Made by a program: the position numbers and the translations under genes | From: Tissierellia bacterium | GTDB taxonomy: Bacteria; Bacillota; Clostridia; Tissierellales; Tepidimicrobiaceae | DNA: 64,000 nt | Direction of reading: 5' to 3' | NCBI GenBank assembly: GCA_012735215.1 | Contig: JAAYHX010000010.1 | Location: forward strand, 1 to 64,000 | The notes under the pieces: model-generated | Told to the model about the DNA's origin: nothing | The model's input: only the letters and a program-made list of their open reading frames with translations | Database searches by the model: none | Shown here: in pieces, positions 1-1,977 of the stretch | How positions within the stretch are numbered: the first letter of the stretch is position 1 | Layout: the number at the start of each line of letters is the position of its first letter

Positions 1-401
1 GCAATTTTATCATTTTCATAGTCTCTTATTGTACTTTGATGAAGTCCACATAATTCAGCTAATTTCCTTTGGCTTAATCCAGATATCATTCTGTATTTGT
101 ATATGATTTGACCAGGAGTGTCTTCTGGCCATTCATTAGCGCCTAATAGATACTCATTTGTTGTATTTAATGCTTGACTAATTTTAGATAAAGTAGTAAC
201 ATAAGGATTTGCATGAGATTTTTCAATTTTTGAAATTGTTTCGGGGCTGATGTTGCATTTTTCAGCTAGTTCTTTTATAGTATAATTGTTTGAGATTCTA
301 CATTTATATAGTCTCTCCCCCAAAGTAGATTCGGGTAGAGTTTCTACATTATATATATAGCACTCAAATGATATGGTTTTGCTTTTTGCTAATACATCCA
401 T
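1..401 (-). CDS. XRE-family regulator with two helix-turn-helix units (partial, runs off left edge)
   Basis: The minus strand is open from an ATG at 401-399 to the window edge, giving at least 133 residues with no stop. Two HTH_XRE-like units are visible: one around TIKELAEKCNISPETISKIE followed by LSKISQALN, and a second around LSQRKLAELCGLHQSTIRDYE. They are joined by a segment containing NEYLLGANEWPEDTPGQ. The TLGERL...TIKEL layout repeated about 65 residues apart resembles a family of duplicated-HTH DNA-binding proteins found in mobile elements. The start is uncertain: the ATG lies in retained comM sequence and has only a weak GGGA upstream. The gene points away from the comM remnant, so its promoter would lie in or across the junction. 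Family identity is likely; its target and role are unknown. Confidence 0.75.
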   Translation of the reverse strand, partial: MDVLAKSKTISFECYIYNVETLPESTLGERLYKCRISNNYTIKELAEKCNISPETISKIEKSHANPYVTTLSKISQALNTTNEYLLGANEWPEDTPGQIIYKYRMISGLSQRKLAELCGLHQSTIRDYENDKI

Positions 402-880
402 GTCCCTGTGGTTATTATGGAGATCCTTATCATGAGTGTAGCTGCTCACAAAATGCCATAGATAGATATTTGAGTAAGTTGAGCAGTCCCCTTTTAGACA
501 GGATAGATATTCATATGGAAGTGCAGCCTGTAAATTATGCCGATTTAAAGGAAGTTAAGAAAGGGGAAACTTCGAAGGATATTAGAGAAAGAGTTGATAG
601 AGCAAGACAGATACAGCTTGATAGATATAAAAAGGAAAACATATTCAGCAATTCTCAATTAAGTCCTAAGAACATTAAAAAGTACTGCAAGCTTAGTAAA
701 GAAGCTGAAATAATAATGGAACAAGCCTTCAAGAAGTATAGGTTTAGTGCTAGAACATATAATAAGATACTAAAAGTAAGCCGAACCATAGCTGATTTAG
801 ATGGGGAAGATATTATACTAGAAAAACATGTTCTAGAAGCTGTTAGATATAGGAGCATAGATAGACAATATTGGGGGTAG
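368..880 (+). pseudogene. comM: comM/yifB C-terminal fragment, N-terminal two thirds missing
   Basis: From about residue 10 the reading frame matches the C-terminal third of ComM (YifB, magnesium-chelatase-like AAA+ ATPase linked to transformation): HPCPCGYYGDP, LLDRIDIHMEV and the closing FSARTYNKILKVSRTIADLD and YRSIDRQYW. Family members are about 500 residues long, but only about 160 recognisable residues remain. The ChlI domain and Walker A and B motifs are absent from the window. Upstream of the CPCG motif the frame is unrelated, and a stop lies at 326-328. The formal ATG at 368 has no ribosome binding site and encodes non-ComM residues, so this is a remnant and not a functional gene. 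The missing part may lie beyond an inserted element to the left. dprA follows directly, the usual comM-dprA order. Confidence 0.85.
388..402. other. Breakpoint between foreign DNA and comM (possible integration junction)
   Basis: comM-like sequence becomes recognisable at about 395-400, where the codons for H-P-C-P-C-G begin. Left of this, the sequence is non-ComM and belongs to the minus-strand two-HTH gene. An abrupt loss of homology inside a conserved motif is what one end of an integrated element would leave. comM is a known insertion target, for example for AbaR islands in Acinetobacter. Neither the other end nor a recombinase is visible, so the exact crossover and the mechanism are inference. 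Confidence 0.5.
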
Positions 881-885
881 GAATA

Positions 886-1977
886 ATGATAAATATTTCT
901 GATCGGGATGTTATCATATGGCTAAATAGCCTCAATATTGGAAATAGAAATATCGAGAAGTTAATGTATCATTTAGATAGCTTAAAGGATCTGTGGACTC
1001 TATCAGTTGATGAAATATATCGATTTAAAGACATTAAAGCTAAAGTCTTGGAGAAGATTATAGTATATAGGGATGAAGATTACTTAAAGAAGTTATTTGA
1101 TTCTTTGCATAAAAAAAGTATTAGGACTGTTACTATTTTTGATGAAAATTATCCAGAATGTTTAAGATATATATATGACAAGCCCTTGGTTTTGCATATG
1201 AAAGGGGAAATAACAGGGGAAGACAGTATAGCTTTAGCAGTAGTAGGGTCTAGGGAAACTACCAGTTATGGTAAGTGGGCTACAGAGTACTTTGTTAAAG
1301 AACTTGTAAAGCTTGATGTGACGATTGTTAGTGGATTAGCCTTAGGGATAGATGGCATAGCCCACCAAACTGCTTTGGAGCATGGGGGAAGAACTATTGC
1401 TGTATTAGGTAATGGATTAGATGTGGTATATCCCAAGAAGAACAGAGAGTTGTATAGATTGATACCAGAAAATGGAGCACTGATTACAGAGTACGGTCTG
1501 ACTGTACAGCCTACAGCTTATAATTTTCCATTGAGAAATAGAATAATTAGTGGTCTATCTCTAGGTGTAATTATAATTGAAGCAAAAGAAAGAAGTGGGT
1601 CCTTAATTACTGCTGAACATGCCTTAGAACAGGGGAAAGAAGTCTTTGCCCTTCCTGGTAATATTAATAGCATATTCAGCAAGGGAACAAACAAACTAAT
1701 TAAGGAAGGCGCTAAAATTATTATGGATATAGAAGATATACTTGAGGAAATATATCAACTTAAGGGTAGAAGGAAAAAGGGCATAGAAGAAGAAAATCTT
1801 TCACAGCTAAGCGATTTGGAAGTATTAGTAGTTGAATCTATGAAGGAAGGTCCTATCCACAGTGATATGATAGCTTTAAGGACTGGATTGGACATTTCTA
1901 CTGTAAATAGTATATTAACTATTTTAGAGATTAAAGGTATTATAAAAGAAATAGCTGGGAGGGTTTTTAGCTTATAA
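886..1977 (+). CDS. dprA: DNA processing protein DprA (363 aa)
   Basis: DprA binds incoming single-stranded DNA and loads RecA during natural transformation. The Rossmann-like core is clear: VVGSRETTSYGKW, VSGLALGIDGIAHQTAL, NFPLRNRIISGLS and ERSGSLITAEHALEQG. A winged-helix region follows at the C-terminus (LVVESMKEGPIHSDMIALRTGL onward in pieces). An N-terminal SAM-like helical region precedes the core. I choose ATG 886 because GGGGGTAGG lies just before it at 872-882; the open frame extends slightly further up to a TTG at 871. It directly follows the comM remnant, so if both were once co-expressed for competence, that partner is now broken. Length is normal for the family. Confidence 0.95.
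   Translation: MINISDRDVIIWLNSLNIGNRNIEKLMYHLDSLKDLWTLSVDEIYRFKDIKAKVLEKIIVYRDEDYLKKLFDSLHKKSIRTVTIFDENYPECLRYIYDKPLVLHMKGEITGEDSIALAVVGSRETTSYGKWATEYFVKELVKLDVTIVSGLALGIDGIAHQTALEHGGRTIAVLGNGLDVVYPKKNRELYRLIPENGALITEYGLTVQPTAYNFPLRNRIISGLSLGVIIIEAKERSGSLITAEHALEQGKEVFALPGNINSIFSKGTNKLIKEGAKIIMDIEDILEEIYQLKGRRKKGIEEENLSQLSDLEVLVVESMKEGPIHSDMIALRTGLDISTVNSILTILEIKGIIKEIAGRVFSL

Follow-up and report, generated by a model that had tools for sequence, protein, structure and literature searches.

A phage serine integrase gene that appears to shed a helix-turn-helix tail upon integration in comM

We analyzed the window (a 64,000-nucleotide stretch of DNA, namely positions 1-64000 of contig C24 of genome G000, in which position 1 is the true contig end) and found that it opens with the end of a virus that has inserted itself into comM. 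The helix-turn-helix (HTH) "regulator" at this end is the cut-off 3′ part of the phage's integrase ORF, which is split, and thereby separated from the integrase, because the attP site lies inside that ORF. Judging from the sequences compared below, the integrase of the free phage is long and carries two HTH domains at its C terminus, and integration leaves a short form.

The plus-strand ORF at window positions 368-880 corresponds to the C-terminal part of YifB/ComM (TIGR00368 positions 345-499 of 499; Pfam PF01078 and PF13335), and from this ORF and its domain matches, we assign positions 398-880 on the plus strand to the comM 3′ part (a YifB family Mg chelatase-like ATPase). Homology to comM sets in with the core CCATGTCC (window 398-405), where the gene is cut inside its NPCPCG motif; an earlier interpretation made from the letters alone (the sequence-only reading) had correctly noticed a break within this motif at ~395-400. 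The missing 5′ part is terminal on contig C4 (L001:1444-2568; TIGR00368 positions 7-351), is normal up to MNPCPC, and ends in the same core. The comM halves on C24 and C4 are complementary stretches of TIGR00368, and joining the C4 flank to the 3′ part in the window restores ...ASMNPCPCGYYGDPYHECS... over the junction. The next ORF after comM (871-1977), which we take to be dprA, appears intact and untouched by the insertion, as had been stated earlier. Moreover, when a junction-spanning comM peptide was used as a query against 61 relatives, 57 were matched, with comM spanning the junction in 52, cut there in 4 (G000, G014, G019, and G060), and matched weakly in 1 (G009); the peptide had no match in 4 of the 61. 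Genome G007 contains two comM-like matches to the same peptide (G007:C143 and G007:C114).

The other element end is found at the end of contig C4, where the last 67 codons of a large serine recombinase (LSR) gene cross the core opposite comM and reach a stop codon in comM DNA. This 67-codon C terminus has no convincing Pfam match and was identified by identity, being 82% identical to a 606-aa open frame in G019 and 78% identical to a 736-aa open frame in G014, both of which carry LSR domains. Nowhere in the assembly that contains the window was a Recombinase domain detected; the element interior is therefore missing from that assembly, and the element is known from its two ends alone. With the comM 5′ half and an LSR end both located on C4, the proposal that a site-specific recombinase brought an element into comM, and that the window begins with one end of it, is borne out, as is the expectation of a short shared core, which is ATCCATGTCC with a TG crossover, and of relatives with an intact comM.

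On the minus strand, the ORF at positions 3-449 is open at the contig end and contains two HTH_3 stretches (E 8.7e-24), in agreement with the two-HTH gene that the sequence-only reading had described at the junction. Positions 3-401 of this strand comprise the HTH half, that is, two XRE/HTH_3 domains with which the integrase ORF ends in the free phage. The HTH half runs off the contig at position 1, matches the tail of the G014 fusion at 76% identity, and is in frame with the LSR end once the element ends are reconstructed. Fused ORFs were read directly in G014 (718 aa), in the Paenibacillus phage Paisley (695 aa), and in the IMG/VR contig L127 (713 aa, with an attP-like inverted repeat inside the ORF), and the G014 and Paisley proteins combine Resolvase, Recombinase, Zn_ribbon_recom, and HTH domains. 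The prophage LSRs of G019 and G237 contain all three LSR domains without the HTH domains, and the same Resolvase, Recombinase, and zinc-ribbon domains are present in the P0001 and P0002 LSRs. The prophage LSR frames stop 3-169 codons beyond the core, in host DNA. In G413 (L118), the frame runs 169 codons into comM 3′ DNA, in a different frame, which gives a 739-aa open frame.

From the att comparison in G000, G014, and G019 and from 16 reconstructed attP/attB pairs, we place attR at window positions 375-428 (unstranded), comprising (i) an element half-site at 375-400, (ii) the TG at 401-402, and (iii) a comM half-site at 403-428. We deduced the TG crossover from the positions at which G019 and G237 differ in sequence, together with the center of the attP inverted repeat. 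Most attP sequences were reconstructed, not read directly, and the site appears to be an imperfect inverted repeat around the 2-bp crossover; a plain palindrome score put the attP center in first place for L127, though for neither Paisley nor G014. Joining the element ends left the LSR-to-HTH frame open in all 16 reconstructed comM elements, 12 of which have both ends on one contig and 4 of which (G000, G060, G443, and G508) pair ends from different contigs. The joined comM flanks were likewise in frame over the junction in 16/16 (86 bp checked in each), and as a wrong-frame control, the two other HTH-side frames closed after 1-38 codons. In G508, a frameshift upstream leaves the LSR frame open for just 45 codons before the core, and in G241 and G000, the LSR is covered only in part by the available sequence. 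Dinucleotide and orientation agree in all 16 comM elements, an agreement that follows from the reading of the shared core and is a matter of consistency, not an independent test.

In G014, the attP contig spans early genes, the integrase-HTH gene, and an endolysin gene, in this order, and shares overlaps of 98 bp with the attR contig and of 95 bp with the attL contig, with 10-N gaps between contigs. From these overlaps, G014 looks like an excised phage assembled beside its integrated form. A tandem dimer, with attL, attP, and attR in one scaffold, was considered and dropped in view of the 10-N scaffold gaps and the 95-98 bp overlaps, which leave a tandem array in G014 less likely.

The integrase and HTH parts lie at opposite prophage ends. 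In G019, the element is a myophage-like prophage whose genes cover head, sheath, baseplate, packaging, lysis, and replication functions; G237 contains a myophage-like prophage with sheath, tape measure, portal, and terminase genes; and G241 contains portal, terminase, and baseplate-hub genes. A tail of this kind resides in the serine recombinase gene of the Paenibacillus phages Harrison and Paisley, which are 100% identical over the 206 aa searched, and among the phage records listed (the best 20 of 32 records in one phage-record search), these two phages, with three records, are the only ones with a tail within the recombinase gene. In the family of G249 (Paenibacillus fonticola), 16 of 394 genomes contain a relative of the Harrison/Paisley tail, and an LSR is present at E 1e-60 in 12 of these 16 Paenibacillaceae genomes. 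Leaving out G336, G374, G390, and G644 (no LSR at E 1e-60) as well as G265 (LSR at a contig end), we reconstructed 11 pairs, all of them in comM at the same codons, with the HTH end adjoining the comM 5′ part in 9 and the orientation reversed in 2 (G443 and G351). Upstream of the LSR, adjacent or one ORF away, 9 of the 11 elements contain a gene with an HE(L/M)CH motif (L116, L117, L118, L119, L120, L121, L123, L124, and L126), and the five of these nine genes that were scanned all match Peptidase_M78 (IrrE/ImmA type). G508 and Paisley contain a separate XRE gene directly before the LSR instead.

A GidA-family gene is the target in the IMG/VR record G645, which contains two LSRs, one of them from a prophage with both an HTH end and an LSR end in this gene. 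The 5′ host fragment matches Pfam GIDA, NCBIfam gave no name for the two host fragments of the record, and the target gene is presumably trmFO. When the element ends are joined at the shared CAGAAGC, a 703-codon LSR-HTH ORF results, and the host flanks, once joined, form an open frame; the two other HTH-side frames close after 2 and 16 codons. Further, this element keeps an XRE gene and an IrrE-type peptidase gene. The second LSR of the record (L128 and L163) ends about 200 bp off in apparently the same GidA-family gene, and G645 thus apparently contains two prophages in one GidA-family gene.

Change in the HTH half is highest at the third codon position (0.30, 0.21, and 0.49 for positions 1, 2, and 3), and its dN/dS is about 0.13-0.22 in 9 of 10 pairs (one pair being saturated), values that are rough, as dS is near saturation in several pairs and the pairs share members. 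By these substitution patterns, the HTH half is under purifying selection. The linker between the core and the HTH domains shows a smaller contrast between codon positions (0.27, 0.20, and 0.34) and a dN/dS of about 0.27-0.54, indicating weaker selection, and attP constraint also acts on the linker just after the core.

The sequences show that, in this phage family, the integrase frame runs through attP into the two-HTH tail, and that integration at the TG-centered NPCPCG site of comM (or in the GidA-family gene, in one relative) splits the integrase gene at the attP core. The prophage keeps a short integrase ORF, with the catalytic, recombinase, and zinc-ribbon domains where examined and with its stop in host DNA, and the HTH part is stranded at the other prophage end. 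We propose that excision would restore the long ORF, a state of which G014 resembles a snapshot. The tail would then work only within the long integrase made by the free phage, as an integration- or establishment-phase device that may (i) favor attP × attB recombination, (ii) block re-excision, or (iii) repress phage promoters during integration; it might act on DNA near attP or hold the enzyme in integration mode. Excision would be left to the short enzyme made by the prophage, together with a separate directionality factor. Since an excision factor would be useless in the tail's position, the likeliest role of the tail is in integration or in establishing lysogeny. We consider it probable that the tail is an integration- or establishment-phase part of a long integrase that is lost on integration. 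More tentatively, the system may be a self-editing bacterial serine integrase that loses its DNA-binding tail by integrating, such that the state of the phage DNA, free or integrated, is recorded in the structure of the enzyme and sets its direction. The weaker selection on the linker speaks against the favored reading of an integration- or establishment-phase tail, as does the fact that the HTH half could be made alone wherever an ATG is present near the core or further in. Also on this side of the balance are the reconstruction of most attP sites, the four joins across contigs, the upstream frameshift of the G508 LSR, and the missing interior of the window's element.

The main rival to this reading holds that integration frees the HTH part as a repressor, which is expressed from the prophage end and makes immunity integration-dependent; the elements that have a start codon close to or at the core count in its favor, and those that lack one count against it. 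The two XRE domains of the HTH part suit such a role, mycobacteriophage BPs offers a precedent, and the unfused relatives of the tail of the GidA-family element, which are phage regulators beside a divergent XRE gene, fit a repressor as well. Among 18 prophage HTH halves, 5 (G000, G019, G237, G241, and G351) carry an ATG at the core or close to it and 4 more (G413, G467, G559, and G443) carry one further in, and the HTH half of the GidA-family element has its ATG at the core. However, two of the 18 (G508 and G312) lack ATG, GTG, and TTG alike in the stretch from the upstream stop to the first HTH domain, the sole start in G060 is a GTG 43 codons upstream, and the Shine-Dalgarno scores of the HTH-half starts are mostly weak (the best being -5.2, for a TTG in G559). 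For the window's HTH half, an internal TTG start was dropped, as it is unconserved and has no Shine-Dalgarno-like stretch. Moreover, a consensus scan of the minus strand at window 250-900 found no sigma-70-like promoter, and the upstream host DNA differs with element orientation, so that the elements have no shared promoter. The separate XRE gene before the LSR in Paisley and G508, and the XRE and IrrE-type peptidase genes of the GidA-family element, also count against a freed repressor, which we regard as somewhat unlikely.

The start codon of the window's HTH half bears on the interpretation given in the sequence-only reading, namely a stand-alone genomic-island regulator, the element's own first gene, whose start and perhaps promoter would be taken from comM DNA. 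The first in-frame ATG of the window's HTH ORF (complement of 399-401) does lie at the junction, across the shared crossover core, and was said to sit in retained comM sequence; it is not purely comM DNA, bases 399-400 being element-side and base 401 being the first base of the deduced TG crossover (401-402). Fused ORFs read directly, a frame conserved across attP, start codons that vary among elements, and the promoter scan without a match all speak against such a gene, and we consider it highly improbable. What that reading observed is confirmed, and its interpretation is partly supported. A further possibility is that attP merely lies at the end of the integrase gene and that read-through is incidental, leaving the tail functionless in the fused protein. 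All three LSR domains are present in the prophage LSR part by itself, and tailless LSRs function in many phages, both of which agree with this explanation; yet the frame is open in the 16 comM elements, the GidA-family element, and the three directly read ORFs, it is kept across tail-carrying LSR lineages that are about 40% identical or less to each other, and the tail is subject to the selection described above. An incidental origin of the fusion is, in our judgment, quite unlikely.

LSRs targeting comM (a magnesium chelatase gene) are already known, with 12.4% of predicted site-specific integrases targeting this family (PMC10083194). They share the LSR family and the target gene with the present elements, although the relevant passages of that paper do not mention an attP inside the LSR gene, and "helix-turn-helix" occurs 0 times in its main text. 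Archaeal suicidal (SSV-type) integrases also have their recombination site inside the integrase gene, which integration divides; in the part of a review concerned with them, such self-disrupting integrases are called exclusive to archaea, and the split parts are described as inactive (PMC8371274). An attP within the integrase ORF is common to both systems, but the archaeal enzymes are tyrosine recombinases, whereas ours is a bacterial serine recombinase with a PF00239 resolvase domain, and in place of inactive parts, the HTH tail alone would be lost here, the three LSR domains being kept in G019 and G237. In the integration-dependent immunity of mycobacteriophage BPs, attP lies inside the repressor gene (PMC4557955). 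There too, attP is in an ORF with a DNA-binding product whose length differs between free phage and prophage, but as described for BPs, what the repressor loses is a C-terminal degradation tag, and the integrase is encoded by a gene of its own, whereas the split here falls between integrase and HTH domains. Engineered fusions of integrases with directionality factors show that a C-terminal fusion alters serine integrase behavior (PMC5737554); as reported in the sections concerned, these are laboratory-made and favor excision, whereas the natural tail belongs to the free form and is absent from the prophage integrase. The solved chain 9dxd contains YokA with YotN. The main text of a 2025 study of 96 P. 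larvae phages does not contain "attP" or "attachment" (PMC11860570), and searches of open-access PMC listings brought up no report of an LSR-HTH gene with an attP inside it. The elements described here would be a bacterial serine-recombinase counterpart in which integration cuts off an HTH tail and not the catalytic core, which is relevant to how serine integrases keep direction; they offer natural integrases that are long or short depending on the state of the phage, together with the matching att sites, for one host gene in both orientations.

Searches beyond the window delimit the distribution of the tail. A genome contig scan gave 29 relatives, among them a single close one, L062 (Clostridium sp. 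Cult2), and no fused LSR-HTH frame was present among its loci. Viral-contig scans found nothing fused with the Tissierellales-side tails and only their own records with the two IMG/VR tails, and a plasmid collection contained no match to the tail. Hits in the phages Vegas and Abouo were set aside as separate regulator genes, not recombinase tails, and the LR1 hit was set aside as having no annotated gene beneath it and lying apart from the integrase. Within the order Tissierellales, 7 of 249 genomes were matched, comprising split copies in G000, G019, G237, G241, and G060, the fused copy in G014, and a weak HTH match in G045. G060 also contains, on contigs C7 and C30 (L041 and L043), degenerate second copies of both element ends, which include an attP-like junction with stops, as if an older copy had decayed.
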